A DNA stretch of 64,000 nt from Pseudomonas bijieensis (GTDB lineage Bacteria; Pseudomonadota; Gammaproteobacteria; Pseudomonadales; Pseudomonadaceae). Numbering within the stretch: position 1 is the first letter of the stretch; the number at the start of each line of letters is the position of its first letter. Made by a program: the position numbers and the translations under genes. This document shows, piece by piece, positions 14,024 through 34,374 of this stretch. The DNA is taken from positions 124,001 to 188,000 of the forward strand of contig NZ_CP048810.1 of assembly GCF_013347965.1 (NCBI RefSeq). The letters are read 5' to 3'. Under the pieces are notes generated by a model. That model searched no databases and was not told the origin of the DNA. It was given only the letters and a program-made list of their open reading frames with translations.

Positions 14024-15445
14024 ATGCACGATTATCAAATGCTCATCAATGGGGCGCGGGTCGACGGTGAAAACGGCCACTTCGATGTGTTCAATCCGGC
14101 GACCGGTACCGTGTTCGCCCGCTGCCCGGCCGGTTCCCTCGCCCAACTGGACCTTGCCGTCGAAGCGGCGCAAGCGGCCTTTGTCGAGTGGCGACACAGT
14201 ACTCATGAAAACCGCCGCCAGCGCCTACTGAGCATCGCTGCCGATCTTGAACAGGAAGCCGAGTCGTTGGCCCGGCTCATTGTCCTGGAGCAGGGCAAGC
14301 CACTGGAACTGGCGTTCTCCGAAGTGATGGGCGCAGTGGCCTGGACGCGTTATGCCGCCGAGCAGCAGATTCCCGTAGAGCTGGTGGAAGAAACCCCGAC
14401 CCAGCGCATTGAACTGCACCGCAAGCCGTTGGGCGTTGTGGCGTCGATCACGCCCTGGAACTGGCCGTTCATGATCGCCGTCTGGCACATCATGCCGGCG
14501 TTGCGGGCCGGTAACTGCGTGATCAGCAAACCGTCCAGCCTGACCCCCTTGAGCACCCTGCGCCTGGTGGACATCATCGCGCGCCATGTGCCTCGTGGCG
14601 TGATCAGTAGCGTGACCGGTGAACAAGGTTTCGGCAGCGCGATCACCGCCCATGCCGGTATCCAGAAGATTGTCTTCACCGGCTCGACCGCCACCGGCCA
14701 AAGCGTGATGCGCGGCGCTGCCAGCAACCTCAAGCGCCTGACCCTGGAGCTGGGCGGCAACGATGCCGCCATCGTGCTGCCAGGCACGTCGGTCGAGGCG
14801 GTCGCCGAAGATATTTTCCAGGCGGCCTTCCTGAACATGGGGCAGACCTGCGCCGCCCTGAAGCGTTTGTACATTCACCAATCCCAGTACGAGGCCTTTG
14901 CCGAGGCCCTGACCCTAATCGCCAGGCGTCAGGTGGTGGGTGACGGCCTGGCGCCTGGAGTCACTTTTGGCCCGGTGCAGAACCTCGAACAGTTGGCGCT
15001 GGTGGAGGAACTGGTGGCCGATGCCCGTGCCCATGGGGCGCGGGTGTTGTGCGGCGGTGCCCGTCTGGACCGTCCGGGCTTTTTCTATCCGCCGACCCTG
15101 GTTGCCGATGTCACCGATGGGCAGCGCCTGGTGGACGAGGAACAGTTCGGTCCGGTGCTGCCCCTGATTGCCTATCAGGATATCGAGGATGTCCTGCGCC
15201 GCGCCAACGCCGGCGACATGGGCTTGGGCGGATCGGTCTGGGGACGCGACAGCGAGCAGGCACAGGCATTGGCCAGTCGCCTGGAATGTGGCATGGCCTG
15301 GGTCAACTGCCATGCGCAGATCCAGCCGAATACGCCGTTTGGCGGCAGCAAGATGTCCGGGTTCGGCGTCGAGTTCGGCCTTGAAGGGTTGCTGGAGTTC
15401 ACCGGCCAGCAACTGCTGTACGTACGCAAGCGTGAAACAGAATGA
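14024..15445 (+). CDS. NAD(P)-dependent aldehyde dehydrogenase (semialdehyde type)
   Basis: A 473-residue enzyme with all ALDH hallmarks: the oxyanion Asn in TPWNWPF, the catalytic Glu in LELGGND, the nucleophilic Cys in NMGQTCAALKR, and the C-terminal PFGGSKMSG. Length and motifs fit the succinate-semialdehyde/aminoaldehyde branch. The start follows AAGGAAGG, with 85 bp after the permease gene. It is followed almost immediately by the aminotransferase. In this setting it probably oxidises the aldehyde released by that transaminase. The exact substrate is not visible from sequence. Confidence 0.88.
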   Translation: MHDYQMLINGARVDGENGHFDVFNPATGTVFARCPAGSLAQLDLAVEAAQAAFVEWRHSTHENRRQRLLSIAADLEQEAESLARLIVLEQGKPLELAFSEVMGAVAWTRYAAEQQIPVELVEETPTQRIELHRKPLGVVASITPWNWPFMIAVWHIMPALRAGNCVISKPSSLTPLSTLRLVDIIARHVPRGVISSVTGEQGFGSAITAHAGIQKIVFTGSTATGQSVMRGAASNLKRLTLELGGNDAAIVLPGTSVEAVAEDIFQAAFLNMGQTCAALKRLYIHQSQYEAFAEALTLIARRQVVGDGLAPGVTFGPVQNLEQLALVEELVADARAHGARVLCGGARLDRPGFFYPPTLVADVTDGQRLVDEEQFGPVLPLIAYQDIEDVLRRANAGDMGLGGSVWGRDSEQAQALASRLECGMAWVNCHAQIQPNTPFGGSKMSGFGVEFGLEGLLEFTGQQLLYVRKRETE

Positions 15446-15456
15446 GGACTGCAACC

Positions 15457-16806
15457 ATGTACGAGCAATACAAGACAGCACAGAAGAAGTTCTGGCACCC
15501 GATGAGTTCTTCGGCGCCAGCCAATCGCTCCAAGACGTTGATCATCGCCCGTGGCGACGGTAACTACATCACCGATATCGAGGGCCATCGCATGCTCGAT
15601 GGTGTCGGCGGTTTGTGGAACGTGAACGTGGGTCATAACCGGGCTTCAGTGAAGGCGGCCATCGCTGCGCAGCTGGACGAGCTGGCCTATTACCAGACCT
15701 TTGACGGCATCGCCCATCCGCGGGTGTTCGACCTGGCCGAGCGGCTGACGTCGATGTTCGCCCAGGAAAACATGGCCCGGGTGCTGTTCAGTTCCGGCGG
15801 TTCCGATGCGGTCGAGACGGCCCTGAAAATGGCCCGTCAATACTGGATCGCCAGCGGTGAGCCAGGGCGCACGCGCTTTCTGTCGCTGCGCAATGGCTAC
15901 CATGGCGTGCACGTGGGCGGTACATCGGTGGGCGGCAATGGGGTCTATCACTACAACCACGGGCCGCTATTGGCCGGCTGTCATCTGCTCGATACGCCGT
16001 GGCTGTACCGCAACCCCTGGGATTGCCGCGATCCGGAAGAATTGACTGCCCACTGTATTCGTCAGTTGGAAGACCAGATCGCGCTGCTTGGCCCACAGAC
16101 CATTGCTGCGCTGATCGCCGAACCGGTACAAGGCGCCGGCGGCGTGATCGTGCCGCCCGCGCATTACTGGAAGCGGCTGCGCGAAGTCTGCGACCGCCAC
16201 GGCATCCTGTTGATCGCCGATGAAGTGGTCACCGGTTTCGGCCGCACCGGCTGCATGCTCGGCAGTCGCGGCTGGGGTGTCGCGCCCGACGTCCTGTGCC
16301 TGGCCAAGGGCATCACTGCTGGCTACATCCCCATGGGCGCTACGGTCTTCAACCAGCGCATCGTCGATGCCATCGAGAACGGCCCGGGTTTCAGCAGCGT
16401 GATCATGCACGGCTACACCTACAGCGGGCATCCGACCGCTTGTGCGGCGGCCCTGGCGGTGCTGGACATCGTCGAGGCCGAGGATCTGCCGGGTAACGCG
16501 GGAACAGTCGGAGCCCAGTTGCTGGAGCAACTGCAACCGCTGACCGAACGTTATGCGGTGGTGGGTGAAGTGCGTGGCAAGGGCTTGATGATCGCCGTGG
16601 ACCTGGTGGCGGACAAAGTCACGCGCGAACCACTTGACCCGGCCAACGGCCTGGCCTCGCGCATCGCCGAGCAAGCGCGCCTGGCCGGCGTTTTGATGCG
16701 CCCGATCGGCAACAAAATCGTGATGTCGCCACCGCTGACCCTCACCAGCGACGAGGCCGCCCTGATGGTCGGCGCGTTGGACAGCGCGCTCGCCGATTGC
16801 CGCTAG
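15457..16806 (+). CDS. Class III PLP-dependent aminotransferase (omega-amine type)
   Basis: A 449-residue fold-type I aminotransferase. The PLP pocket residues are visible: SSGGSDAVETALK, IADEVVTGFGRTG (Asp to the pyridine N), the Schiff-base Lys in CLAKGITAGYIPMGA, and HGYTYSGHPTACAAAL. It resembles the SpuC/beta-alanine-pyruvate group that transfers omega-amino groups to pyruvate or 2-oxoglutarate. An upstream ATG at 15442 overlaps the dehydrogenase stop, but the GAGGA at about 15445 is well spaced for 15457, so I use that. Together with the permease and dehydrogenase it forms an uptake, transamination and oxidation route. Confidence 0.88.
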   Translation: MYEQYKTAQKKFWHPMSSSAPANRSKTLIIARGDGNYITDIEGHRMLDGVGGLWNVNVGHNRASVKAAIAAQLDELAYYQTFDGIAHPRVFDLAERLTSMFAQENMARVLFSSGGSDAVETALKMARQYWIASGEPGRTRFLSLRNGYHGVHVGGTSVGGNGVYHYNHGPLLAGCHLLDTPWLYRNPWDCRDPEELTAHCIRQLEDQIALLGPQTIAALIAEPVQGAGGVIVPPAHYWKRLREVCDRHGILLIADEVVTGFGRTGCMLGSRGWGVAPDVLCLAKGITAGYIPMGATVFNQRIVDAIENGPGFSSVIMHGYTYSGHPTACAAALAVLDIVEAEDLPGNAGTVGAQLLEQLQPLTERYAVVGEVRGKGLMIAVDLVADKVTREPLDPANGLASRIAEQARLAGVLMRPIGNKIVMSPPLTLTSDEAALMVGALDSALADCR

Positions 16807-16887: not shown

Positions 16888-18213
16888 ATGCGGTCTCTAT
16901 CTCGTATGGATTTTTTCGGCAGTGGCCTTGCCTGTACGCTGGCGCTTTGTGCCACGAGTCAGGTTCAGGCCTATGAGTTGTATGCCGATGAAGACACTCA
17001 CCTCAACGCCGACCTGCTGGCGGTGTTCGGCCATTTCAACAGTCGTAAGAACTACGACGGCACGCCCGGCGGTTCAACCTGGCGCGAAGGCTTCATCAAG
17101 TATGGCGTCAGCGGCGACCAGGGCCTGGCCGGCCACGGCACTGCCTACGGTGCGTTCAACCTGATCAGTTCCGCCACTTGGGGCGATGGCGATCCGGCCG
17201 GTAATTCCCTTGGGTCCGAGCGCACCACCAAGATCGAAGACGCTTACCTGGGTTGGCGCTCCGCCGATCTGTTCCCTGTGCTGGGGCAGGACGGTGTCGA
17301 CATCTCCGGTGGCCGCCAGGTGGTCAAGCTGGGCCGGGGATTCTTGATCAACGATGACGGGCCGAACCTGGGCAAAGGGCCGGCCGATGGTCGCTTGAAT
17401 CGTGGTGGGGCCTATTACCTGGCGGCCCGGCACGCCTTCGATCAAACCGCCGTGTTGCGCCTGGGCGGGCAGGATGGGTTGCATGGCAGTGTGGTATGGC
17501 TCAAGTCCGACAACCGTGCCCAGGCCGAAACCGAATTGGCCGCCGGCACGCTGGATTACACCGCCAGGGCCGGTACGTTGGGCCTGACATGGGTGCATGG
17601 CCTCGACGTGAACGAGCGGTGGGCCAGCGACTTCCAGAAGCAACGCAAGGACATGAACGTCTACAGCATTCGTGGGGAAGGCGACGCGGGTATCGACAAT
17701 GCCAGCCTGGCATTCGAATACGCCTGGCAGGACAAGAACGCCGGCCCACAGAACGCCTGGTACGCCGAGGCCGGCTACACCTTTGCCGATATCGCCTGGG
17801 CGCCCAAGCTGACGTACCGCTACACCCGCTATTCCCAGAAGTGGGACTCGCTGTTCACCGGGCAGAGCACGGGTTATGGCACCTGGTTCCAGGGTGAAGT
17901 CGCGGGTAACTATGCCGGGCCATTCAACAGCAATACGGGGATCCATCATGTGGGCTTGAAGGCCACGCCATTGGAGAGCCTGACCCTCGGTGCGTTGTAC
18001 TTCGATTACAACACCGTACGTAAAGACAACGCCTTGAACCTGGATGCCCGTGAGCTGGATGTGTATGCCGAGTGGGCCGTCAACGAGCATTTGATCATCA
18101 CCCCGCTGATAGGCCTCTACAAGCCGGATCGGGATGCAACGACGGGGGGTAATCAAGTGACGGGCAATGGCACCAACGTGTACAGTCAGGTGACGGTGGC
18201 CGTTCCGTTCTGA
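16888..18213 (+). CDS. Outer-membrane beta-barrel channel protein
   Basis: A 441-residue exported protein. The N-terminal signal peptide ends near residue 28 (SQVQA before YELYADE). The mature part is rich in alternating aromatic and polar strands and ends in Phe (VTVAVPF), the outer-membrane barrel sorting signal. The gene has a strong AAGGAG site. It resembles substrate-specific OprD-like or long-chain porins of Pseudomonas, but I cannot place it firmly in one family. Because it follows the permease, dehydrogenase and aminotransferase genes on the same strand, I infer that it admits the same substrate across the outer membrane. Confidence 0.8.
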   Translation: MRSLSRMDFFGSGLACTLALCATSQVQAYELYADEDTHLNADLLAVFGHFNSRKNYDGTPGGSTWREGFIKYGVSGDQGLAGHGTAYGAFNLISSATWGDGDPAGNSLGSERTTKIEDAYLGWRSADLFPVLGQDGVDISGGRQVVKLGRGFLINDDGPNLGKGPADGRLNRGGAYYLAARHAFDQTAVLRLGGQDGLHGSVVWLKSDNRAQAETELAAGTLDYTARAGTLGLTWVHGLDVNERWASDFQKQRKDMNVYSIRGEGDAGIDNASLAFEYAWQDKNAGPQNAWYAEAGYTFADIAWAPKLTYRYTRYSQKWDSLFTGQSTGYGTWFQGEVAGNYAGPFNSNTGIHHVGLKATPLESLTLGALYFDYNTVRKDNALNLDARELDVYAEWAVNEHLIITPLIGLYKPDRDATTGGNQVTGNGTNVYSQVTVAVPF

Positions 18214-18237
18214 AACGGGGGGGCTGGTTCCCTGAAC

Positions 18238-20297: not shown

Positions 20298-20347
20298 GAA
20301 GTCGATCGAACAGAACGCTGGATAACGTCGATCTGCGTTAACCGCCG

Positions 20348-21109
20348 TCACATCCCGTGGGCAGCCGCAGGCGGATTCTGCATGCGTTCGGCAATCCGCC
20401 GGGTGGTGTCCATCACCATCTCAATCACGGTTTCCTGGCGCAGCAATTTGAAGTTGTGGGTGCTGCCGACCGCCGAAAGGCTGCCCACCACCTCGTCGAG
20501 CCCTGGGTTGACGATCGGCGCCGCGATACCGGTGAGCCCCAGGTTGAGTTCATCATGGGTCAGGCAATAGCCGTCCTTGCGGATCTTTTTCGCTGCCTTG
20601 GAAAAGCTGGCCCAGTCGTAGGTGCTGTCAGGGTCATTGGCCAGGTGTTCCTCGAACAGGCGTTGCAGGCGTCGACCCTTTTGAAAGGCGATCAACACCT
20701 TGGACTGCGCACCGCGAAAAAACGGCAGCGGCTGGCCGCGTCCGAATGCGAACTGGTAGGTGTCATTGGGTTCGGCGATGTAGGTGTTGATGATGTGTCC
20801 GTCATAGAAAACGCTGGCGAACACCGCCAGGCCGGTGGCTTCGGACAGCTCGTGCATCAACTCGCGGCCCGCCACGAGGATCGGGTCGTACTGGCGCATC
20901 ATCCAGTCGAGTTCGATGATGCGCGGCCCCAGGCCATAGCTGCCGGCATCCACCCGCACCAGCAGGCCGGCGTCACACAAATCCTTGACGTAGCGGTACA
21001 CGGTCGCCCGTGACAGGCCCATGCGCTCGGCGATGGTCTCGGGGTCGATCTTCAGCGTTGCCGGGCCGAAGAGGTCCAGCACACTCAGCATTTTGCTCAG
21101 ACTGCTCAT
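20348..21109 (-). CDS. IclR-family transcriptional regulator
   Basis: A 253-residue regulator. An N-terminal winged helix-turn-helix (ETIAERMGLSRATVYRYVKDL) is followed by the IclR effector-binding domain (about residues 70-245, with HNFKLLRQETV near the end). It is divergent from the large operon beginning at 21384, with a 274-bp gap that holds an inverted repeat. IclR proteins in this position usually control the divergent aromatic or organic-acid catabolic operon. I infer that role here; the ligand is unknown. Confidence 0.9.
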   Translation of the reverse strand: MSSLSKMLSVLDLFGPATLKIDPETIAERMGLSRATVYRYVKDLCDAGLLVRVDAGSYGLGPRIIELDWMMRQYDPILVAGRELMHELSEATGLAVFASVFYDGHIINTYIAEPNDTYQFAFGRGQPLPFFRGAQSKVLIAFQKGRRLQRLFEEHLANDPDSTYDWASFSKAAKKIRKDGYCLTHDELNLGLTGIAAPIVNPGLDEVVGSLSAVGSTHNFKLLRQETVIEMVMDTTRRIAERMQNPPAAAHGM

Positions 21110-21275
21110 TTCGCTCCTAAAGGGGGGAATGGCGCGTAGGTGGTCGTTGGGTGAGCACTATAGGTAGCCGCGGCAGTGATGAAAAGCCCGCAGGCTCGCT
21201 CAGGAGTGCGTTGTCACGGTAACCCAATGTCTGAGAAATACAAGCTCATTTTCGGCGGTTTTATCTCAATAAAAA

Positions 21276-21306
21276 TGCATAAATCTCAAAATATGATTTT
21301 TATGCA
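21276..21306. promoter_or_regulatory. Candidate IclR operator in divergent gap
   Basis: TGCATAAA, a 15-base spacer, then TTTATGCA: a perfect 8-bp inverted repeat. The AT-rich stretch around it also has the direct repeat TAAATCTCA at 21280-21288 and 21342-21350. It lies between the IclR gene and the operon it probably controls. The rest of the 274-bp gap shows no gene. Confidence 0.45.
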
Positions 21307-21383
21307 GAAAAACAGCTTGTTTTGTCGGTTCTCCTGTGTGATAAATCTCAGCCACTGCAAACGCTCGATCAAGAGGGCTGGAA

Positions 21384-22925
21384 ATGAATGGTGCGCAACT
21401 GATAGTGAAGGCGGCGGTGGCGAGCGGTATCGAATACTGCTTCGCCAATCCTGGAACGACTGAAATCCCCCTGGTGGCAGCCATGGCCAGTGCGCCAGCC
21501 CTCAAGCCGGTATTGTCCTTGTTCGAGGGGGTATGCACCGGTGCCGCGGACGGCTACGGCCGGATTGCCGGCAAGCCGGCGATGACCCTGACTCACCTGG
21601 GGCCTGGCTTTGCCAATGGCATTGCCAACCTGCACAACGCGCGTCGCGCCAATACCCCGATCGTCAACGTCATCGGCGATCACGCGTCATGGCACGTCAA
21701 CTACGATCCGCCGCTGGCCAGTGATATCCAGGCCCTGGCCGGGAGCGTTTCCGGATGGGTGCGCACATCGCGCACCGCATCGGGTGTAGGCGAAGATTTC
21801 CAAGAGGCCGTGCGTGCCGCCTGGCAAGCCAACGGACAGATCGCCAGCCTGATCCTGCCAATGGATCTGCAAGCCAACACTGTGCAGCATGAGAAAGCCT
21901 TCACGGCATTGCGGGCCCCGGTTCGGCGTTTTGCCGGTGACCGGATCGAGGCGGTCGCCCAGGCATTGCGTGATGGCCGGCGCCTGGTGTTTATCGTTGG
22001 CGACCAAGGCTTGTCCGTCGCCGGGCTCGAAGCGGCGGGGCGCCTGGCCCAGTTGCCGGGTGTGCGCCTGTTCGCCGAAACCTTTCCACGCCTGAGCTAT
22101 CGCGGTGGTGGCCTGCCTGACCTGGATCGTCTGCCTTACTTCCCCGAAGTGGCCATTGAGATCCTTGACCAATACGACGCGGTGGTTTGCGCCGGTGTGC
22201 CGGACCCGATCAGTTATTTCGGCTACGAAGGCATCGCTTCTCGCCTGGCTGAACGTGAACGCCTGCTCTGCCTGGCGGAAGTCGGGGACGACGTCGCCGG
22301 AGCGCTCACTGCGCTTGCCGATGCGCTTGAGGCGCCGGCTTATGTGCCAACGCCAATGGGTATCGAGCTGCCACCAGGCGATGCCACGTTGACGCCCCAG
22401 TCCGTGGGTCAGGTGCTGGCCGCATCGCTGCCGGACGATTGCATCGTTTCGGTGGAAGGCGGGACGTGCGGCTATCCATTCTTCACCGCTTCGGCCCATG
22501 CCGCGCGGCATCGGGTCTTGACCAACACCGGTGGGGCCATCGGCCAGGGTATTCCGGTGGGCTTTGGCGCCGCCATGGCCGAGCGTGGCAACCAGGTGTT
22601 CTGCCTGCAATCGGACGGCAGTGCCCAGTACACCATCCAGACCCTGTGGAGCATCGCCCGCGAGCAACTGCCGGTGGTGATCCTGATCGCGGCCAACCAT
22701 CGCTACGCCATTTTGCAGAACGAGCTGCGCCGCTTCGGCATGACCGAACTGGGCCCCGAGGCCTTGAGCCTGACCGTACTGGACCGTCCACGCATCGATT
22801 GGAAAGCCTTGGCCAAGGGCTATGGCTTGCCGGCCAGCACCGTGCACACCAATGGTGAGCTGCATCGGGCCCTGGCCAATGCCAAGGCCGACGGCGGTCC
22901 TTGCCTGATTGAAATGGCGCTGTGA
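21384..22925 (+). CDS. TPP-dependent enzyme, acetolactate synthase/benzoylformate decarboxylase-like
   Basis: A 513-residue three-domain thiamine diphosphate enzyme. The N-terminal pyrimidine domain has CFANPGTTEIPLV and the cofactor-activating Glu in LFEGVCTGAADGYGR. The C-terminal diphosphate-binding domain runs from about residue 370, with QSDGSAQYTIQTLW then AANHRYAIL. The usual GDG of the metal motif is SDG. It belongs to an uncharacterised group auto-named acetolactate synthase large subunit, but there is no regulatory subunit and the neighbours are catabolic. I infer decarboxylation of a 2-oxo acid to an aldehyde, which the next gene would oxidise. Carboligation cannot be excluded. Confidence 0.8.
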   Translation: MNGAQLIVKAAVASGIEYCFANPGTTEIPLVAAMASAPALKPVLSLFEGVCTGAADGYGRIAGKPAMTLTHLGPGFANGIANLHNARRANTPIVNVIGDHASWHVNYDPPLASDIQALAGSVSGWVRTSRTASGVGEDFQEAVRAAWQANGQIASLILPMDLQANTVQHEKAFTALRAPVRRFAGDRIEAVAQALRDGRRLVFIVGDQGLSVAGLEAAGRLAQLPGVRLFAETFPRLSYRGGGLPDLDRLPYFPEVAIEILDQYDAVVCAGVPDPISYFGYEGIASRLAERERLLCLAEVGDDVAGALTALADALEAPAYVPTPMGIELPPGDATLTPQSVGQVLAASLPDDCIVSVEGGTCGYPFFTASAHAARHRVLTNTGGAIGQGIPVGFGAAMAERGNQVFCLQSDGSAQYTIQTLWSIAREQLPVVILIAANHRYAILQNELRRFGMTELGPEALSLTVLDRPRIDWKALAKGYGLPASTVHTNGELHRALANAKADGGPCLIEMAL

Positions 22926-22935
22926 AGGAGCGGAT

Positions 22936-24426
22936 ATGAACCCGATTCAATTGTTACCTGCCGTCGAGAAGTTCCTGTCGCAACCGGGACGCCTGTTTAT
23001 CGGCGGCACCTGGCAGGACGCCGCCAATGGCCGTCGGTTTGCCGTGGAGAACCCAGCCACTGAGCAGACCCTGACTGAAGTCGCCGAAGGCGGCGAACGC
23101 GACGTGGATGCCGCCGTCGCCGCCGCCCGTGCGGCCTTCACCGGGACCTGGGCGCAGCAGTCGCCGGCCCAGCGTGGGTTGTTGCTGTTTCGCCTGGCGG
23201 AACTGCTCGACCAGCATCGCGAAGAGTTGGCGCAACTGATCACCCTGGAAAACGGCAAGCCGATTGCCAACGCCCGCGGGGAGGCGGCGAGTGCCGCCAA
23301 CATCATTCGCTACTTTGCCGGCTGGCCGACCAAGATCGAAGGCAGCACGCTGCCGGTATCGCCTTCCAGTGGCGCGCCGATGCTCAACTACACCTTGCGC
23401 GAGCCAGTGGGCGTCTGTGCGTTGATCGTGCCGTGGAACTTCCCGCTGACCATGTGCGTGTGGAAGCTCGGCCCGGTGCTGGCGACCGGTTGTGTCGCGG
23501 TGCTCAAGCCCGCCGAGCAGACGCCCCTGGTTGCCATTCGCCTGGTGCAACTGATCGAGGCCGCCGGTTTCCCGGCCGGGGTGGTCAACCTGCTCACCGG
23601 TCTTGGTGTGCATACCGGCGCACCGCTGGCCCAGCACCCGGACGTGGACAAGATCGCCTTCACCGGATCGACCCAGGTGGGACGGCTGATCGCCCAGGCC
23701 GCCACCGGCAACATGAAGAAGGTTTCGCTGGAGTTGGGTGGCAAGTCTCCCAACATCATCCTGCCGGACGCCGATATCGTCCGGGCCGCCAAAGGCGCCG
23801 CCGACGGCATTTTCTACAACCAGGGGCAAGTCTGCACCGCCGGATCGCGTCTGTACGTGCACGCCAGCGTCCTCGACCAGGTGCTTGAAGAACTCCAGCG
23901 CCATGCGGCCGCCCATGTGTTGGGGCCAGGCCTGGATCCGGCCAGCAGCATGGGCCCGCTGGTCTCGGCCCGGCAATTGGGCACGGTGCGTGGCTACCTG
24001 CAGCGGGGCCAGGAAGAAGGCGCCGAACTGATCTGCGGCGGTGACCGGCCGGCTCATCTGGAACAGGGGCACTTCATTCAGCCCAGCGTGTTTCTCGACC
24101 GCGCCGAGCGTGCCTGTGTCGCCCGGGAAGAAATTTTCGGCCCGGTGCTGACCGTCATGAGCTGGACCGAAATCGACGAGCTGGTGCTACGCGCCAACGA
24201 CTCGCCTTACGGCCTGGCCGCCGGTCTCTGGACCCGTGACTTGCGTTCCGCCCATCGCGTGGCTGCGCAGTTGAAGGCCGGCTCGGTGTGGATCAACTGC
24301 TGGAACGTCGTCGACCCGGCCTCGCCATTTGGCGGCTACAAGCAATCCGGCTGGGGCCGGGAAATGGGCAAGAACGTGATCGATGCCTACACCGAAACCA
24401 AAAGTGTCTTCGTCGATCTCGCCTGA
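22936..24426 (+). CDS. NAD(P)-dependent aldehyde dehydrogenase
   Basis: A 496-residue ALDH with VPWNFPLT (oxyanion Asn), the catalytic Glu in LELGGKS, the nucleophile in NQGQVCTAGSR, and C-terminal PFGGYKQSG. It resembles the betaine/phenylacetaldehyde/aromatic aldehyde branch. I use the ATG at 22936 because AAGGAG is correctly placed; the frame opens at 22909 inside the previous gene. It follows the TPP enzyme by ten bases. The pair suggests conversion of a 2-oxo acid to a carboxylic acid with one carbon fewer, which is inferred from gene order. Confidence 0.88.
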   Translation: MNPIQLLPAVEKFLSQPGRLFIGGTWQDAANGRRFAVENPATEQTLTEVAEGGERDVDAAVAAARAAFTGTWAQQSPAQRGLLLFRLAELLDQHREELAQLITLENGKPIANARGEAASAANIIRYFAGWPTKIEGSTLPVSPSSGAPMLNYTLREPVGVCALIVPWNFPLTMCVWKLGPVLATGCVAVLKPAEQTPLVAIRLVQLIEAAGFPAGVVNLLTGLGVHTGAPLAQHPDVDKIAFTGSTQVGRLIAQAATGNMKKVSLELGGKSPNIILPDADIVRAAKGAADGIFYNQGQVCTAGSRLYVHASVLDQVLEELQRHAAAHVLGPGLDPASSMGPLVSARQLGTVRGYLQRGQEEGAELICGGDRPAHLEQGHFIQPSVFLDRAERACVAREEIFGPVLTVMSWTEIDELVLRANDSPYGLAAGLWTRDLRSAHRVAAQLKAGSVWINCWNVVDPASPFGGYKQSGWGREMGKNVIDAYTETKSVFVDLA

Positions 24427-24452
24427 GCCGAACAATCACAAGAGGAACTGCT

Positions 24453-25247
24453 ATGGATCTGGAATTGCAAGGCCGCGTGGCGATCGTCACCGGCGGTGGT
24501 ATGGGTATCGGCAAGGAAGTCGCGCGTTTTCTGTCCCAGGAAGGTTGCAAGGTGGTGATCTGTGCGCGGCGCATGGAGTTTCTCCAGCAGGCCGCCGAGG
24601 AAATCACCGCAGAAACCGGCAACGAAGTGCTGCCGCTGTTCTGTGACACCAACCAGATGTCGGCGGTGTCGGACATGGTCGAGGCGGCCCACAAGCACTT
24701 TGGCCGCATCGACATCCTGGTCAACGGCGCCGCGGCACCGTCCGGTGTGGTGCGCAACGACATCGAACATGCCGGTGACGATGAATTGCTCTCGGACCTC
24801 AACACCAAGGTGATCGGCTATTTCCGTTGCGCCAAGGCAGTGACTCCGCACATGAAGGCCGGCGGCTTCGGTCGCATCATCAACATCGGTGGCCTGACCG
24901 GGCGCGGCAGCAAGGTGCTTTCGGGCATGCGCAACCTGGCCATTGCCCACATGACCAAAACCCTCTCCGACCAGTTGGGCCCATCGGGCATCACGGTCAA
25001 CCTGATCCACCCCGGTGTAGTGGATACCCCGCACATCCAGGAGCTGTACGAGCGCGAAGGGGTCAAGCAGGGCAAGACGCCCGAGCAGGTGGAGCAGGGT
25101 TACATCGACGCGACGCCGATCCGGCGCACCCTGGCGCCCATCGAAATGGGCTGGCTGATCGGTTTCCTCGCATCCCCCAAGGCCGGTGCCGTGACCGGGG
25201 AATCCATTGGCATCGACGGCGGCTTGACCCGTGGCATCTTCATTTGA
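24453..25247 (+). CDS. SDR-fold protein lacking the usual catalytic residues
   Basis: A 264-residue Rossmann protein. The cofactor-binding TGGGMGIG is intact at residues 13-20, and an NNAG equivalent is present as NGAAA at 91-95. The active-site stretch that should hold Ser, Tyr and Lys reads NIGGLTGRGSKVLSGMRN: the Ser position is Gly, and no YxxxK motif occurs; the aligned positions are about S157 and N161. Its length and its C-terminal TGESIGIDGG are normal. It may bind NAD(P) without classical reduction, or use another mechanism. The start at 24453 follows AGAGGAA. It is the third gene of the operon. The role is unknown. Confidence 0.85.
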   Translation: MDLELQGRVAIVTGGGMGIGKEVARFLSQEGCKVVICARRMEFLQQAAEEITAETGNEVLPLFCDTNQMSAVSDMVEAAHKHFGRIDILVNGAAAPSGVVRNDIEHAGDDELLSDLNTKVIGYFRCAKAVTPHMKAGGFGRIINIGGLTGRGSKVLSGMRNLAIAHMTKTLSDQLGPSGITVNLIHPGVVDTPHIQELYEREGVKQGKTPEQVEQGYIDATPIRRTLAPIEMGWLIGFLASPKAGAVTGESIGIDGGLTRGIFI

Positions 25248-25259
25248 GGAGCAGCAGTG

Positions 25260-26300
25260 ATGAGTAACGGAACCCTTTTGGTCGCCACCGTAGGGCAGGC
25301 GGTAATCCGCAGCGCCGACGATGGCCGCACCTGGCATCGCCTGGGCCTGGGCCAGGACCTGGAATTCGATGCGATCACCCGATCCCTGAGTGTCCATCCG
25401 GGGACACCGGAGGTGATCTACGCCGGCACCGACGTCGGCTTGTGCATCAGCCGTGACACCGGAGGCTATTGGCAGCGGGTGGATTCACCGTTCAATGGGC
25501 AGACCGTCTGGAAGGTGGCCGTGGATCCACAGGATGCACAGCGCATTTTCGTCGGCACCGGTGCGCCTTCGCGAGCGGTGCTGTGGCGCACCCTGGACGG
25601 CGGCCAGAGCTGGGATCGTGCCCCGGTGGAGATTCCAGAGTTCTGCGATGGCGTCAGTCGTCCGCGCTTGCTGGCCTTCGCCTACGACCCGACGGATCGC
25701 AACCAGCTCTGGTTCGGCCTGGAGGAGGGTGGGCTGTTCCACAGCCGTGACGGTGGCGACACCTGGACCCGTGTCGATGACCGCTTGCTGTGGGACTTCA
25801 ACTCGGACGTGCACAACATCCTGGTTTTGCCCAACCATGGGCAAAAGGTCATTGTGGTGGTGTGCGTCAACGCCGTTTACCGCAGTCTCGACGAGGGGCT
25901 GACCTGGACCGGCATCGTCGCGCGGGAAGCTTTCGGCCTGTACTACGTGCGCGCCATGAATGCCCCGATGGGCAGCGAAGATATCCTTTACCTGAGCATT
26001 TCCGACGGCACACCGGGCACGACCAGCAAGGTGCTGGTCTCCCGGGACGCCGCCCTCAGTTGGGAAGTGTTGCCACTGCCGCAGCAACCCAATTCCTGTG
26101 TCTGGGCGATTGCCTTGAACCCTGCCGACCCTCGCCAGATCGTCGCCGGTACCAAGTACGGGCATCTGTTCACCTCCGAGAACGGCGGTGACGGCTGGCA
26201 GAAGCAGTGGCGTGAATTCAGTGAAATCGCTGATGTGCTCTGGACGCCCGCCGTGGCGCAAATCAAGTCCGGGCATCAATCCATCATCAAGAAGAACTGA
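25260..26300 (+). CDS. Asp-box (BNR) beta-propeller protein, cytoplasmic
   Basis: A 346-residue protein with seven Asp-box motifs at regular spacing: SADDGRTWHR, SRDTGGYWQR, TLDGGQSWDR, SRDGGDTWTR, SLDEGLTWTG, SRDAALSWEV and SENGGDGWQK. Seven boxes predict a seven-bladed propeller. There is no signal peptide, unlike sialidases and most BNR proteins, so it should act in the cytoplasm. Start chosen at ATG 25260 (GAGGAG eight bases before) rather than the GTG at 25257. It is embedded in the operon. Propellers in catabolic operons can be lactonases or hydrolases, but I see no motif that decides this. Confidence 0.82.
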   Translation: MSNGTLLVATVGQAVIRSADDGRTWHRLGLGQDLEFDAITRSLSVHPGTPEVIYAGTDVGLCISRDTGGYWQRVDSPFNGQTVWKVAVDPQDAQRIFVGTGAPSRAVLWRTLDGGQSWDRAPVEIPEFCDGVSRPRLLAFAYDPTDRNQLWFGLEEGGLFHSRDGGDTWTRVDDRLLWDFNSDVHNILVLPNHGQKVIVVVCVNAVYRSLDEGLTWTGIVAREAFGLYYVRAMNAPMGSEDILYLSISDGTPGTTSKVLVSRDAALSWEVLPLPQQPNSCVWAIALNPADPRQIVAGTKYGHLFTSENGGDGWQKQWREFSEIADVLWTPAVAQIKSGHQSIIKKN

Positions 26301-26311
26301 GGTATCGCGCG

Positions 26312-26761
26312 ATGAAAGTCGAAGTCGTTCGTACTCACCTGTCGTTGTTCGTGAGCGACCCTGAAGTATCGGCACGTTGGTACGCCGACGTGCTGGGCAT
26401 GCATGAAAGCGCCCGGGGTGAAAGCTGGATCATGATGGCGTTTGGTGCCAAGCATCACGACATCGCGTTGCTCCGCGCGGAACCCGGGGCCCACCAGGGC
26501 GGCCTGGGGTTGCAGCACTACGGGCTGGAGATCGCGGGCGACATGACCACCCTGCGCAAGCTCTACGGCATGTTGCTGAAAAAGGGCGTCGAGGTGGTGA
26601 AGATCACCGACCACGAGATCGGCAACGGCGTGTATTTCAACGACCCCGATGGCAATCGCATGGAATTTTTCCTCGAGTCCGAACACGACGATGCACGCGG
26701 CAAGGCCCGCTTCAAGGCGGCCGGGGCGCCCAGCCGCCACTTTGATCTCGACCCACTTTAA
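26312..26761 (+). CDS. VOC-family metalloprotein, possible extradiol dioxygenase
   Basis: A 149-residue single vicinal-oxygen-chelate unit. The candidate metal ligands are His9 (RTHLSLFV), His69 (LQHYGLEI) and Glu118 (NRMEFFLE), the 2-His-1-carboxylate pattern. The loop YFNDPDGNRMEFF is typical of both glyoxalase-like and type I extradiol dioxygenases. It is about half the size of classic two-domain dioxygenases. Next to a flavin hydroxylase, an alpha/beta hydrolase and a hydratase, ring cleavage is the natural guess. Isomerase or glyoxalase-type chemistry is equally allowed by the fold. Confidence 0.82.
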   Translation: MKVEVVRTHLSLFVSDPEVSARWYADVLGMHESARGESWIMMAFGAKHHDIALLRAEPGAHQGGLGLQHYGLEIAGDMTTLRKLYGMLLKKGVEVVKITDHEIGNGVYFNDPDGNRMEFFLESEHDDARGKARFKAAGAPSRHFDLDPL

Positions 26762-26774
26762 GGAGAAACGCCTG

Positions 26775-27377
26775 ATGAAAACCGCAAATTTCGCCAGTTA
26801 CCACATTCGCAAATGGTACAGCTTCGTCGAGGAAACCCTGGCCAATGAAACGGGCCAGTTGGCCGATGGTGAGCCGCTGTTCAAGTACGCCATTGGCGCC
26901 GTGATCGCCAACCCTTACGCCGGACGCTTCAGCGAAAGCCTGGCCGAGCTGATCGAGCCTTCACCGTTGTTGGGCCAGGAGTTTGGTCGGCGCATCCAGG
27001 CTCTGGCCGGCCAGCGGGAAATCGTGAGTTACGGCAAGGCGTGCCTGGTGGGCAGCCAGGGCGAGTACGAGCATGGCAATGCATTGTTGACCAATCCGGC
27101 GGCGGATCCGATCCGCGTCGCATTGGGCGGCGGCAAGTCCTGGGTGCCTTCCACGGGCAAGCGTGGCGGGCCTGGCGTGACCATCGATGTGCCGCTGGCC
27201 CACAAGGACGCGCTATATGTCCGCTCGCACTACGACAGCATTTCGCTTTCGTTCGGTGATGGTCCCTCGGCCGACGAGCTGGTCATCATCTGGGCCTTCG
27301 CCACGCGCGGGCGCTTGCATGCACGTCTCGGTGGCCTCCAGGCTGCGGACGTGAAAGGTAATGACGGCCTGTATTGA
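26775..27377 (+). CDS. PF06684-type protein (so-called amino acid synthesis family)
   Basis: A 200-residue soluble protein with conserved-looking blocks IGAVIANPYAGRFSE, GKACLVGSQGEYEHGNALL, and GGGKSWVPSTGKRG. It resembles the DUF1185/PF06684 family, whose common name is not backed by a known reaction. ATG at 26775 follows AAGGAGA. It lies between the VOC gene and the hydrolase with short gaps, so it belongs to the operon. That points to a catabolic role, perhaps an isomerase, hydrolase or amide-related step. No function is assigned. Confidence 0.72.
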   Translation: MKTANFASYHIRKWYSFVEETLANETGQLADGEPLFKYAIGAVIANPYAGRFSESLAELIEPSPLLGQEFGRRIQALAGQREIVSYGKACLVGSQGEYEHGNALLTNPAADPIRVALGGGKSWVPSTGKRGGPGVTIDVPLAHKDALYVRSHYDSISLSFGDGPSADELVIIWAFATRGRLHARLGGLQAADVKGNDGLY

Positions 27378-27404
27378 GGTGCGTTGATCGTGGGAAGCAA
27401 ACGA

Positions 27405-28268
27405 ATGTCTGCAAACAGCCAGTTCTTCACCAATCGATCCGGGATGCGCCTGCACTATCTGTCCTGGGGCAATGCGTCGGGCATTCCCGTCCTGATGCTG
27501 CATGGGTTGCGCGCCTATGCCCAGACCTGGACGTCATTGGCCAATGCACTGGGTGAGCAGTACTGTTGCTACGCCCTGGATCAGCGCGGTCGTGGCGACA
27601 GTGACTGGGCAGAAGCTTCCAGCTACCGGACCGAGGCCTATGTCAGTGATCTGGAAGATTGGGTCGCGCACCTGGGGCTTGAGCGTTTCGTCCTGGTCGG
27701 GCATTCCCTCGGCGGCACCAATGCGCTGGAGTATGCCCGGCTCAACCCCGGCCGCCTGCAAGCCCTGGTGATCGAAGACATCGGCCCCGGTTCGTCGGTC
27801 AGCGGCGACGGTGCCGAGCGCATCCGTCGCGAGATGAGCCAGACGCCGCTGTCGTTTCCCGACTGGGAAAGCGCCGCGCAATTCTGGCGCCGATCGCGGC
27901 CGGGTCTGTCTGCCCAGGGGCTGACGTCCAGATTGACCCACTCGATGAAGCAAACACCGGAAGGCATCGGCTGGCGCCATGACCAGGCCGGGATTGCCGA
28001 GGCGCGCTTGAGCATCACCCCGACCGATCTGTGGCCGGCGGTTCGGGCCCTGGATTGCCCGACGCTGTTCATCCGCGGCGCGCGTTCCGACTTCCTGCCC
28101 CAGGCGACCCTGGAGGCTATGAAAGAGGCCAACCCGCAGGTGCGCACAGCGCAAATCGCCGATGCCAGCCATTATGTCCATGACGACCAGGAGGACACCT
28201 TCAACCGTGTCGTCAGGGACTACTTGCACGACCAATGCCTACAACCACAACAACAAAGCGGTGAATAG
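27405..28268 (+). CDS. Alpha/beta hydrolase
   Basis: A 287-residue alpha/beta-hydrolase. The oxyanion HG is at residues 33-34, the nucleophile is Ser101 in VGHSLGG, the Asp is probably in RGARSDFL, and the His is in DASHYVHDDQ. Proteins of this kind cleave C-C bonds of meta-cleavage products or hydrolyse esters and enol lactones. The frame opens at a TTG at 27384; I prefer the ATG at 27405 after GGGAAG. It sits just before the flavin hydroxylase gene with a two-base gap. Role inferred as hydrolysis of a ring-cleavage product. Confidence 0.85.
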   Translation: MSANSQFFTNRSGMRLHYLSWGNASGIPVLMLHGLRAYAQTWTSLANALGEQYCCYALDQRGRGDSDWAEASSYRTEAYVSDLEDWVAHLGLERFVLVGHSLGGTNALEYARLNPGRLQALVIEDIGPGSSVSGDGAERIRREMSQTPLSFPDWESAAQFWRRSRPGLSAQGLTSRLTHSMKQTPEGIGWRHDQAGIAEARLSITPTDLWPAVRALDCPTLFIRGARSDFLPQATLEAMKEANPQVRTAQIADASHYVHDDQEDTFNRVVRDYLHDQCLQPQQQSGE

Positions 28269-28270
28269 CG

Positions 28271-29878
28271 ATGAAGCAGGAGAAAACCCAGGTTGTCATC
28301 GTGGGCGGTGGCCCGAACGGGATCACGGCCGCTCATTACATGGGGCTGTACGGAATCGACTGCATCGTCCTTGAATTGGCTGACGGCGTCCTGCCGTATC
28401 CGCGCGCGGTGGGCATGGATGACGAGGCGCTACGGGTGTTGCAGGGTATCGGCATCGCCGAGCTGGCCGCGCGCGACATGATCTGCAACGTGCCCTTGCG
28501 TTACTACAATGCGCGAGGCGTCTGTTTTGCCGAGGTCAAACCGAGCACGGCGAACTATGGCTGGCCGATGCGCAACATCTTCATGCAACAGTTGCTTGAA
28601 ACGACATTGCGCGAACAACTGGGCAAACACACCAGCGTCGAGTTGCGCCAGGGCCATGAAATGCTCGACCTGGAGCAGGATGCCGAGGGCGTGACCTTGC
28701 AGGTGCGAGATGCCGGGGGCGAGCTCTATCAATTGCAGGCGCAGTACGTGATCGGCGCCGATGGCGGACGTTCCAGCGTGCGCAAGAAACTCGGTATCGA
28801 ACTGCTGGGGTTGACCCATCCACGCAAATGGGTGGTGATCGACACGGCCAACGATACCCTGGATGCACCCTACACGGCCCTGCATGCCGACCCTCAGCGT
28901 CCCTTCGTCTGCATCTATCTGCCGTATCAGCAACGGCGCTGGGAGTTCATGCTCCTGGAGGGCGAAGACGAGACCAGGATGTGCGAAGAGGCGACGATCC
29001 GGGACTTGATCCGTGGACATATCGGCGAGGCGGTCGATCAGCTGGAAATCATCCGGATCCGTGCCTACACCCATAATTCCCGGGTCGCAGCGCGTTTTGT
29101 CCAGGGCCGGGTGGCATTGGTGGGGGACGCGGCGCATATTTCCCCGCCCTGGGCCGGGCAGGGGCTCAATTCAGGCTTGCGTGATGTCGCCAACGTTGCC
29201 TGGAAGCTCGCCGCGATTCTCCAGGGGCGGGCATCGCCGGCGATTCTGGCCAGTTACGATCAGGAGCGCCGTGGGCATGCGACCGACCTCATCGCGTTGG
29301 CCGACAACATGGGGGCCGTCCTGGGGCTGACCAACCCGCTGATGGCCGGTGTCCGGGACTGGTTGTTCCAGGCCGTCAACAGCGTCGACAACCTTCGCTC
29401 GCACTTGCTGGAATTCAAGTTCAAACCCAAGGCGACCATCACCAAAGGCCTGGTGTATCACGAGCGCGCCGAGCTGCATGAGGATGATCTGGTCGGGCAG
29501 TTGTTCATCCAACCGTCTATCGAAGATGCCCAGGGCCAGCGCCGGCGCCTGGACGAAGTGTTGGGGCATTCCTATGCGGTGCTGGGGTATCGGGTCAATC
29601 CGAGCGAACAGCTCAGCGAGCAAACCGCCGCCTGGTGGGCGCGCTGGGACACACGCTTCATCCAGATCAATCGTTCGCGCAGTGGCGTGGGGCGTAACCA
29701 GCCCTTGTCTGCCAATGGCGCCATTTGCGTCGAGGACGTCGATAACCGCCTGGGCGAATGGTTTGCCAAGGTGCGTGATTGCATCGTGGTGGTGCGGCCG
29801 GATCGGTTTGTCGCGGCGATCACCACACCCGAGCGGCTCGAAGGCGTATTGCGCAAACTGGCGGAGCAACTCTCATGA
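28271..29878 (+). CDS. FAD-dependent aromatic hydroxylase (MhpA-like)
   Basis: A 535-residue class A flavoprotein monooxygenase. The FAD dinucleotide motif GGGPNG is at residues 12-17, the DG motif is in VIGADGGRSSVRKKLGIE, and the GD motif is in GDAAHISPPWAGQGLNSGLRD. The C-terminal third adds a thioredoxin-like extension, as in 3-(3-hydroxyphenyl)propionate hydroxylase and related enzymes. It probably hydroxylates a phenolic ring with NAD(P)H and O2. Its stop overlaps the next gene (ATGA), showing tight coupling to the hydratase-like gene. The substrate is unknown. Confidence 0.88.
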   Translation: MKQEKTQVVIVGGGPNGITAAHYMGLYGIDCIVLELADGVLPYPRAVGMDDEALRVLQGIGIAELAARDMICNVPLRYYNARGVCFAEVKPSTANYGWPMRNIFMQQLLETTLREQLGKHTSVELRQGHEMLDLEQDAEGVTLQVRDAGGELYQLQAQYVIGADGGRSSVRKKLGIELLGLTHPRKWVVIDTANDTLDAPYTALHADPQRPFVCIYLPYQQRRWEFMLLEGEDETRMCEEATIRDLIRGHIGEAVDQLEIIRIRAYTHNSRVAARFVQGRVALVGDAAHISPPWAGQGLNSGLRDVANVAWKLAAILQGRASPAILASYDQERRGHATDLIALADNMGAVLGLTNPLMAGVRDWLFQAVNSVDNLRSHLLEFKFKPKATITKGLVYHERAELHEDDLVGQLFIQPSIEDAQGQRRRLDEVLGHSYAVLGYRVNPSEQLSEQTAAWWARWDTRFIQINRSRSGVGRNQPLSANGAICVEDVDNRLGEWFAKVRDCIVVVRPDRFVAAITTPERLEGVLRKLAEQLS

Positions 29879-30659
29879 GGCGCGAAGACGATCTACTGGT
29901 CCGGCTTCACGATGCCGCGCAGGCCTCACATGCCTTGCCTTCGTTGGAGCCTCAGGCCCTCGACCTGTCGGCGGGCTACACGTTGCAGCGCGAGGCATTG
30001 CGCCGGCGCCAGGCCGGTGGCGAGCGGTTGACCGGATGGAAAGTGGCCTTCGCCGGTCGCGCCGCCCAGGACCGTTTCGGTATTGATGAGCCGGTATTGG
30101 GCGGACTGACCGATGTCATGGCTGTGAAACCCGGCAGTACGCTGGCGCTTGCACGGCTGATCCAGCCCAAGCTGGAAATCGAGTTGGCGTTTGTCCTGGG
30201 GCGTACGCTGGTGCCCGGTTTTTACAGCGACGAAGATATTCTGGCCGCTGTGTCCGAGGTCGCGCCGGCGTTCGAAATTGCCGATTGCCGCTGGGAGGGC
30301 TGGCGTTTCGGCGTCGGGGCGTTTCTGGCCGACAATGCCGCTGCGGGGCTTTATTGCCTTGGCTCGCGAGTCAGGTTTCATCCTGAGCAATTGACCCACG
30401 TGACCTATCGCCTGGAATGCGACGGGGTGCCCTGCGGCGAAGGCAATGCCCAGGCGCGCGAGGACACCCCCCCCAGGCAAACCTGTGCTGGCTGGTACGG
30501 CGCTTGCTGGCCGACGGGCAGTGCGTTGAAGCGGGCCAGGTGGTGCTTTCCGGCTCTTTGTTGGCGCCCTTGGACATCAAGGCCGCCGAATACCGGTTGT
30601 ACATGCTTGGCATGGAACTGGCTTTGGTTTTCCAGGCGGATGAAGACGGTCGACAGTAA
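29875..30659 (+). pseudogene. 2-keto-4-pentenoate hydratase-like gene, frameshifted
   Basis: The first about 200 codons encode an MhpD/FAH-superfamily hydratase: LTGWKVAFAGRAAQDRFG, then LEIELAFVLGR, then FEIADCRWEGWRFG. At a run of eight C (30467-30474) the frame is lost. The missing C-terminus continues in another frame as QANLCWLVRRLLADGQ, LSGSLLAPLDIKAAEYRLY and a stop at 30659. Restoring the frame needs one extra C or two fewer. If read as it stands, the protein would have an unrelated tail rich in Trp and Cys. The gene overlaps the hydroxylase stop by four bases. It could be a real inactivation, a slippage-prone switch or a sequencing error. Confidence 0.8.
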
Positions 30660-30689
30660 GAACTGTTTACTCAAGTGAAATGATGCACG

Positions 30690-30781
30690 CGTGGCGAGGG
30701 AGCTTGCTCCCGCTTGAGTGCGAAGCGCTCGCCAAAATGGGTCTGCTGCGCAGCCCAGCGGGAGCAAGCTCCCTCGCCACG
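30690..30781. repeat. REP-type inverted repeat, perfect 25-bp arms
   Basis: Arms 30690-30714 and 30757-30781 are exact reverse complements of the GTGGCGAGGGAGCTTGCTCCCGC class. It fills most of the gap between the hydratase-like gene and the AraC gene, so it may separate their transcripts. Confidence 0.85.
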
Positions 30782-30847
30782 AGGCTACCGACTTGCTTGC
30801 ATAACCGTACCAGGCAATAAGCGCAGGGCCACCGAGGAACAATGATC

Positions 30848-31790
30848 ATGTTCGCCGAAGTTCGTACTTTCAATGATCCTCAGCAACACGCCGGTTCGAT
30901 CCTGGGCTGGCAACAAGTCTACGATCAGCTCGGGCGTGGATGCCTCTCCAGCGAGCTGCGGCAGGTGTGCGCCGATCGTTTCCAGATCTTCCAGGAGGTG
31001 CTGGATAAACGGGTGGTGCAGCGTGGTTGCGCGCCAAAAAGGGCGCCTGTGCATTGCCATGTCGCTGGGCGGTGCGCCAGTGGTCCAGGGGCACCAGGTG
31101 GGCGCCCACAGCGTCGTGCTGCTGCGAGATGGCGAAGACTTCGTCCTGCACGCCCCGGAGGGTACGCACTTCTTCGCGGCCAATGTCGACACGGTACGGT
31201 TCGCCAAGCTGGCGGCCTATGAACTGTCGAGTGAACAACTCAAGCGCTTGAAAAGCGTGTCCCAAGTCAGCGTGGATGAGGTGGTACTGCGTAGGGTGCA
31301 GCAAAGGATTCACCCACTGTTTGGCCACCTTTTGGAACAGGCGGACGCCGTCAATCCCGCCTCGGAAAAAATCCTCGAGGACGTCTTGCTCAACGCCTTC
31401 CTCGACCTGTTCAGTCACGCCTCGGACGAGGTGCGTGGCCGCCGCGGCAATTTTGCCGTCAGCGCCTACCTGGTCAAGCGCTGCCAGGAACTGGTCGACG
31501 CCAGCGCAGATGTGCCCTTGAGCATTCTCGATCTGTGCGAGCAATTGCGGGTCAGTCGCAGGACCCTGCAAAACAGTTTCCAGGCGGTCACCGGGATGCG
31601 TCCGATGGAATACCTGCGCAACCTGCGGCTCAACGCTGTGCGCCGACGTCTGATCGCAACCCATGCGGCTACATTGAACGTCAGTGAAATTGCCGTGGCG
31701 ATGGGGTTTTACCACCTGAGTCATTTTGCGGCCCATTACCGGGCGCTGTTCGGCGAGTCGCCGTCAGATACGCCCAGGGCACAGGCATGA
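30848..31790 (+). pseudogene. AraC-family regulator, frameshifted
   Basis: From 30848 the frame reads FAEVRTFNDPQQHAGSILGW and continues to CAPK, then fails at a run of five A (31036-31040). Removing one A joins it to the frame GRLCIAMSLGGAPVVQGHQV, which runs on to a full C-terminal AraC domain: SILDLCEQLRVSRRTLQNSF, MRPMEYLRNLRLNAVRRRL, and VSEIAVAMGFYHLSHFAAHY with two helix-turn-helix units. The intact protein would have about 314 residues and resembles EutR-like activators. GAGGA at 30834 fits the ATG at 30848. It follows the unusual operon and may have been its second regulator, together with the IclR protein. Confidence 0.8.
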
Positions 31791-32028
31791 TGAGCCGCTG
31801 TTTGCGGTGTTACCGAAGCACCATCTTGCACCCATAAAAGGCAGCCGCTGAGCTGTTTGGTAGCACACCTGTGCGGTTCAGCCGGTAGTGGCGCTTGAGT
31901 CTGGCCGTCGTTTCCCCTGGGCAAATCCCTTCAAATCAATCCCTTGCACGATGACGCGCGAGGTTGGCACGCATTCTGCCTTTTTGAATTCATGGATAAT
32001 TGGATACAAAAATGCAGAAGGTGCTGCC

Positions 32029-32697: not shown

Positions 32698-32776
32698 CGA
32701 GAGCAGGACACTTAGAGCCTGCCCGTGTTTTGACTTTGAGTACTGCCCGTTACTTACTGAACTGGAGTGTCTGGTC

Positions 32777-33583: not shown

Positions 33584-33595
33584 GGTGAACCATCG

Positions 33596-34372: not shown

Positions 34373-34374
34373 CC

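Follow-up and report, generated by a model that had tools for sequence, protein, structure and literature searches.

Several described systems resemble parts of the locus treated here, an operon of Pseudomonas bijieensis that lies in a stretch of 64,000 nucleotides (the window, G000:C1:124001-188000; positions below are those of the window) from a 6.73 Mb genome, assembled as a single contig and 99.99% complete. With the mhp/hpp meta-cleavage pathway (MhpA-MhpF) the operon shares an MhpA-like hydroxylase dependent on flavin adenine dinucleotide (FAD), an alpha/beta hydrolase and a hydratase-like gene; with the homoprotocatechuate (hpa) pathway it shares an aldehyde dehydrogenase (ALDH), a hydratase-like gene and, probably, an extradiol enzyme. 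An FAD hydroxylase, a type I extradiol dioxygenase, a hydrolase and a PF06684 protein (HcdD) are found in one region in the 7-hydroxycoumarin system hcdABC/hcdDEFG of P. mandelii 7HK4, according to excerpts of two papers (PMC6222606, PMC7913881). Trigonelline catabolism, known here from excerpts of the latter paper, links a PF06684 protein with aldehyde oxidation: the homologue TgnF is said to stimulate the TgnE-dependent oxidation of succinic semialdehyde. From another field, BacG is described in part of PMC9147277 as the reductase making the tetrahydro form of the bacilysin precursor, while the role of its relative AerF was left open in the consulted part of a 2011 review (PMC3252866). An initial annotation of the stretch, made from the sequence, had matched the gene set to no named pathway, and the literature searched (open-licence papers only, so that a described pathway may be missed) likewise yielded no description of the set, of a one-domain extradiol equivalent or of a matching amine catabolism.

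The conserved operon

The operon is real. Its core, located on the + strand, codes in this order for a thiamine pyrophosphate (TPP)-dependent enzyme, a probable 2-oxo acid decarboxylase (21384..22925), a short-chain dehydrogenase/reductase (SDR; 24453..25247), a seven-bladed Asp-box propeller recognized by Pfam and fold matches (25257..26300), a one-domain VOC protein of 149 aa (26312..26761), a PF06684 (DUF1185) protein (26775..27377), an alpha/beta hydrolase (PF00561; 27405..28268) and an FAD-dependent aromatic hydroxylase of the PRK06183 type (28271..29878). This order is kept in 59 of 83 loci from Pseudomonadota and Actinomycetota, including Streptomyces, Nonomuraea, Paraburkholderia, Achromobacter, Janthinobacterium, Acinetobacter, Marinomonas and Vibrio. 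The 83 loci comprise 79 taken from the best 80 of 182 matches and four plasmid loci, and the gene-order table was built with identity floors of 30-55% at 45% coverage. Another 16 loci are without only the hydrolase in place, six of which have a hydrolase relative a few kb beyond the AraC gene; the remaining eight differ (L054, L059, L061, L063, L064, L067, L072, L090), in three cases because the cluster is cut by the start of the contig. The gene for aldehyde dehydrogenase 1 (ALDH1; PF00171), located at 22936..24426 (+), is found in 69 of the 75 ordered clusters. Furthermore, among 199 Pseudomonas genomes surveyed, those with the SDR, those with the propeller and those with the TPP gene are the same 22. 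The co-occurrence of these families, which the initial annotation had put forward for checking, was thereby borne out, and chance clustering was rejected on the strength of the ordered core and the shared genome distribution. The closest named loci over this region, among the best 80 of 182 matches, belong to Pseudomonas brassicacearum, P. kilonensis, P. zanjanensis and P. thivervalensis. A close plasmid copy was set aside, the nucleotide search of plasmids returning two records with one 49-base ALDH match; the protein search returned nine records, the best 51% identical. In the phylum search outside the genus, the 18 further rows with E-values of 1e-12 or lower matched in part only, most of them within longer frames.

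The gaps between the operon genes measure 2 to 27 bases, and the FAD and hydratase genes overlap by 4 bases (starts checked); these short gaps and start positions fit a single operon. The families, their order and a divergent IclR-family regulator (20348..21109, - strand; PF01614, PF09339; best NCBIfam model PcaR/PcaU/PobR, below cut-off) were confirmed for the nine tightly spaced genes under an IclR/AraC pair that had been described initially, except that two members are frame-broken in the window. The first is the hydratase/decarboxylase-like gene (29875..30678, +), recognized by alignment to relatives: residues 1-204 of a 254-residue relative are matched, after which the reading frame breaks near a C-run at about 30468, and this open reading frame (ORF) contains no domain recognized by Pfam. 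The second codes for an AraC-family regulator, EutR-like in relatives (30842..31790, +), in which the match to a 315-residue relative covers residues 66-315 only, the break lying towards the 5' end near 31030. The breaks are about 600 bases apart, the first within the C-run, and both genes are intact in the relatives compared. Among the 63 loci covered by this comparison (L009-L071), a hydratase relative in a single frame is present in 55 (with an alignment over at least 90% of its length in 51 and over about 86-90% in 4), and an AraC relative, likewise in a single frame and with an alignment over at least 90%, in 43. The two breaks may be due either to true mutation or to sequencing error. 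Between the two genes, at 30690-30781, lies an inverted repeat resembling repetitive extragenic palindromes, with 37-base arms that are 89% complementary and 18 bases apart. As to the wider distribution, the hydratase is among the least conserved operon members: 28 of the 83 loci, including Streptomyces and most betaproteobacterial ones, are without a counterpart, and the TPP and SDR genes are kept there. The hydratase-like protein of L009 falls short of every hydratase cut-off (best 128 bits vs 409).

The linked set is larger than first listed, with four genes upstream that recur in relatives, all on the + strand: an APC-type amino-acid permease (12490..13938; PF13520, PF00324), an aminobutyraldehyde-type aldehyde dehydrogenase 2 (ALDH2; 14024..15445), which passes the curated cut-off of none of the models listed (25 of 37), a class III aminotransferase of the PRK07481 subfamily (15442..16806; 728 bits vs 575) and an outer-membrane porin-like protein (16888..18213; weak Alginate_exp match below cut-off). 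Relatives of the permease (at least 36% identity) occur in at least 41 of the 83 loci and those of the aminotransferase in at least 26, both counts being lower bounds because for most loci no more than about 10 kb of flanking sequence is available. The porin is itself conserved in relatives, and ALDH2 is kept beside porin and permease. Some accessory genes are found in fewer loci: a GabD-like succinate-semialdehyde dehydrogenase (SSADH; at least 55% identity to that of L055, which passes its subfamily cut-off with 696 bits vs 646) in 12 of 83, a NIPSNAP gene in 15, never together with the hydratase-like gene, and a carboxymuconolactone-decarboxylase-like gene in 11. Between the porin and IclR genes, the segment 18390-20297 codes for a protein of 635 aa that has a trypsin-like domain; tblastn found no relative in 79 loci (L009-L087), so that this gene looks like a local insertion. 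Downstream, at 31888-36827, follow a GntR regulator, amino-acid ABC transporter genes and a gamma-glutamyltransferase; the transporter genes recur in the nearest relatives, and a similar pairing is seen near the Burkholderia pyrrocinia cluster.

Propeller, VOC protein and FAD hydroxylase

The VOC protein had been placed in an aromatic module, and this assignment can be refined. In a profile comparison it matches the C-terminal module of catechol 2,3-dioxygenase (1mpy), H49 aligning with H199, H101 with H246, Y108 with Y255 and E118 with E265. These 1mpy residues belong to the metal ligands and the catalytic His and Tyr of the active module. In the VOC proteins, H9, H49, H69, H101, Y108 and E118 are each found in at least 97% of 82 rows, with an Arg at position 101 in L061. 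Such conservation counts cover loci of at least 8,000 bases and matches reaching identity floors of 38-55% and 75% coverage; the strongly divergent VOC genes of L067 and L090 fall outside them. No curated extradiol model is passed (Catechol_2_3 reaches 40 bits vs 320, over the first 122 of its 303 positions), these models being two-domain. The conserved residues, more than any score, suggest that the VOC protein is probably a one-domain, ring-cleaving extradiol dioxygenase. RecA fusion chains, which came first in the VOC profile search, proved to be sums of repeated weak matches (about 9 bits each) and were disregarded. The FAD gene passes the MhpA-type hydroxylase model NF004831 (769 vs 546 bits), and by the name of this model its product is predicted to be a hydroxylase.

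For the propeller, the first fold match is 3b7f, for which no function is given, followed by GH74, Ycf48, lactonase and CMLE propellers. A role as lactonase or muconate-lactonizing enzyme was considered, and the mixed fold matches gave no decision. The propeller gene adjoins the VOC gene in all loci tabled. Moreover, a propeller-VOC-FAD triad stands without the rest of the operon in L061, L063 and L064, adjoining an aminotransferase and an ALDH, or a GMC oxidoreductase and an ALDH, in genomes that each hold the full TPP-SDR-propeller-VOC-PF06684-hydrolase-FAD set elsewhere. In Marinobacterium (L055), the operon at 10004-20929 carries a second triad, that is, two propeller-VOC-FAD triads and one TPP/SDR/PF06684/hydrolase set. 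Because of L055 and the genomes with lone triads, the triad looks ring-specific, and the TPP enzyme, SDR, PF06684 protein and hydrolase could be shared by several triads; a shared part of this kind favours a downstream place for TPP enzyme and SDR, without proving it. With its two triads, the L055 operon is a natural case for testing ring specificity. On plasmids, three propellers at 27-29% identity sit in other gene sets. On the Novosphingobium plasmid locus L092, at 7902-10059, a distant propeller (29%) adjoins a VOC gene of 357 aa, with SDR and fumarylacetoacetate-hydrolase genes present; going by this locus, the propeller-VOC link may be wider than the present operon.

The thiamine-dependent enzyme and the SDR

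The initial annotation called the SDR degenerate. It does lack the canonical catalytic residues: compared with the canonical chain 7x5j, Gly-Gly replaces Ser-Ser, Gly replaces Tyr and Asn replaces Lys. The altered positions are identical in 77 of 77 rows, and the altered stretch is invariant at most of its columns. In ten locus comparisons, the ratio of nonsynonymous to synonymous substitution (dN/dS) of the SDR is 0.02-0.08, which ranks with the lowest values for the 16 genes or gene parts tested, the PF06684 gene falling below it against L017 and L018. A decaying gene was rejected on these grounds; the protein is no dead enzyme, being strongly constrained and resembling AerF and BacG. The best solved match is AerF of Microcystis, with 204 bits by profile vs 151 for the next; it also comes first in Foldseek (34% identity), searched with a model of mean predicted local distance difference test score 81.4 and a poor C-terminus, and NADPH and 4-hydroxyphenylpyruvate are present in one AerF entry. 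By profile BacG/YwfH ranks third, by single sequence far lower (103.7 bits). AerF and BacG are without the classical residues at the same columns: the Tyr column holds Gly in the SDR and AerF and Ser in BacG, the Lys column Asn in all three, and the NxSS columns no Ser in any. AerF/BacG-type enzymes add hydride to an enone in 1,4-fashion. Because of this resemblance a joint role of SDR and TPP enzyme becomes possible, the SDR as a candidate ene-reductase. The TPP enzyme passes the PRK07586 model (665 bits vs 363). The solved relatives listed for it are benzoylformate decarboxylases, whose model PRK07092 it fails (172.8 bits vs 493). The PF06684 protein scores 212 bits against a Pfam gathering score of 27, with 2qtp and 3byq as solved relatives. 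As for the hydrolase, at least 97% of 69 rows keep S108, D236 and H263 (numbering from the ORF start at 27384).

The genome background also bears on the question. No 4-hydroxy-2-oxovalerate aldolase (catechol-type, MhpE-type) passes the curated cut-off anywhere in the genome (best 74 bits vs 286), so that the absence of the usual aldolase, noted at first for the stretch, holds genome-wide. As a consequence, the product of a DmpE/MhpD-type hydratase would be left without its usual aldolase unless HpaI takes over, of which one copy is over cut-off. Two homogentisate dioxygenases are over cut-off as well (G000:C1:686598-687854 and G000:C1:5347025-5348278); going by these markers, homogentisate and HpaI-dependent routes probably exist elsewhere in the genome.

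From gene content, co-conservation, conserved residues, kinship and selection, all of them computed, we infer every reaction of the following scheme, their order and the substrate. The permease, aminotransferase and ALDH2 would serve uptake, side-chain deamination and oxidation. The FAD enzyme would hydroxylate the ring, the one-domain VOC enzyme would cleave it in extradiol fashion, the propeller and PF06684 protein may handle the fission product as a tautomer, lactol or lactone, and the alpha/beta hydrolase would hydrolyze it. The 2-oxo-3-enoate so formed would have its conjugated double bond reduced by the AerF/BacG-like SDR, the TPP enzyme would decarboxylate the saturated 2-oxo acid, and the aldehyde would be oxidized by ALDH1 or, in other taxa, by the linked succinate-semialdehyde-type enzyme. 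That the operon serves aerobic catabolism of a hydroxylated aromatic in this order of reactions, with TPP enzyme and SDR in the lower arm, is a tentative reading to which we give somewhat less than an even chance. The more specific proposal of a reductive thiamine-dependent ending, in which rearrangement by propeller and PF06684 protein, an ene-reductase, TPP-dependent decarboxylation and oxidation to a carboxylic acid replace hydratase, aldolase and acylating dehydrogenase, is possible and rather doubtful. The substrate is perhaps a hydroxyaryl amine or amino acid, as judged from neighbour genes only; tyramine, DOPA, m-tyrosine, serotonin, phenylglycine and mimosine were considered, and no result favours one. 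What had initially been combined as a 2-oxo-acid module and an aromatic module thus looks like an aromatic catabolic operon, the TPP/ALDH module being proposed downstream, with an upstream place as rival.

A number of results weigh against the lower-arm placement and the scheme as a whole. The whole-chain E-value of the VOC protein against 1mpy is 9e-8, and the matched module itself is weak (i-Evalue 0.0019); H69 lies two columns off H214 of 1mpy, and H9 is outside the alignment. In L090, propeller, VOC, PF06684, hydrolase, TPP and ALDH genes are present and no relative of the FAD gene is found, and in L078 and L083 (both Achromobacter) none of three ALDH types searched was found nearby. BacG is not among the 50 Foldseek matches listed for the SDR. 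The hydratase-like gene, which 55 of the 83 loci contain and which purifying selection maintains (dN/dS 0.12-0.33), suits a conventional ending, which the genome's HpaI might serve. The best model for ALDH1 is that of the phenylacetaldehyde dehydrogenase StyD, the cut-off of which it fails (599 vs 850 bits), and this match, like the 4-hydroxyphenylpyruvate crystallized with AerF, suits an upper place for TPP enzyme and SDR.

Along these lines, TPP enzyme and ALDH1 may form an upper arm that converts an arylpyruvate (or aroylformate) to a hydroxyarylacetate (or benzoate), followed by near-conventional meta-cleavage by FAD enzyme, VOC protein, hydrolase and hydratase, with pyruvate and an aldehyde (succinic semialdehyde, for instance) as end products and HpaI as aldolase. 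The ALDH1 score, the ligand of AerF and the frequent hydratase favour this route and are not explained away; the benzoylformate decarboxylases among the TPP relatives, the HpaI over cut-off, the SSADH-type gene of 12 loci and the genes adjoining the lone triads, which also lead to aryl aldehydes or acids, point the same way. On the other hand, it leaves a strongly constrained SDR without a role, the hydratase is missing in 28 loci while TPP enzyme and SDR stay, and no benzoylformate decarboxylase model was passed, so that it may be called possible and on the unlikely side.

A nitrogen heterocycle as the ring, with a lower part as in trigonelline or vitamin B6 catabolism, appears improbable. 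In that case the hydrolase would release succinic semialdehyde from an enamide-type succinate, with the PF06684 protein helping and SSADH following. The third solved match of the hydrolase, the (acetylaminomethylene)succinate hydrolase 3kxp, the precedent of TgnF, the SSADH-type genes and the linked amino-acid permease and aminotransferase speak for it, whereas the FAD enzyme falls in a hydroxyphenylpropionate hydroxylase model, the VOC protein resembles catechol dioxygenases, and a PF06684 protein is likewise encoded in the locus for 7-hydroxycoumarin, a nitrogen-free route. Finally, by analogy with HcdA, an ipso-hydroxylase in part of PMC6222606, the FAD enzyme might ipso-hydroxylate a para-substituted phenol and the SDR reduce the resulting cyclohexadienone before opening, AerF and BacG being enzymes for cyclohexenones related to 4-hydroxyphenylpyruvate (title of 6jhb; excerpts of PMC9147277), yet a reduced ring would be unfit for an extradiol dioxygenase, the residues of which are conserved in a VOC gene that adjoins the propeller in all loci tabled, and we regard this as quite unlikely.

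Comparison with described pathways

The same ordered block extends from Pseudomonas, Acinetobacter and Marinomonas to Paraburkholderia and Streptomyces, and no description of it was found in the open-licence literature searched. If the lower-arm scheme is right, it would be another way to finish extradiol ring cleavage, and it would provide functions for proteins annotated as glycosyl hydrolase or sialidase, amino-acid synthesis protein and SDR oxidoreductase; under the more specific proposal of a reductive ending, a new type of catabolic enzyme, linked to ring cleavage, would be represented by the propeller. Of the three members for which no place in known routes had been seen initially, the SDR gains a possible one, the PF06684 protein has precedents in catabolic loci, and the propeller still has no known role.

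Compared with mhp/hpp, the operon has a one-domain VOC protein in place of the usual dioxygenase, belongs to a genome without an MhpE-type aldolase over cut-off, and contains in addition the TPP enzyme, SDR, propeller and PF06684 protein. From the homoprotocatechuate pathway it differs in that HpaI is separate in the genome and that the operon's own genes pass no model of the pathway, although SSADH is linked in 12 of the 83 loci. For 7-hydroxycoumarin, a TPP enzyme, a propeller and an AerF-like SDR go unmentioned in the excerpts, and HcdB is a larger extradiol enzyme, with a 31 kDa band (PMC6222606, in part). In the case of trigonelline the oxygenases differ, and ring-nitrogen chemistry is not seen in the operon. 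The kinship with AerF (aeruginosin) and BacG/YwfH (bacilysin) is one of SDR sequence and of the same classical residues lost, in a biosynthetic setting there and among catabolic neighbours here; if the proposed scheme holds, the ene-reductase would descend from SDRs that lost the classical triad, and a reductase branch from antibiotic-type biosynthesis would have been put to catabolic use.

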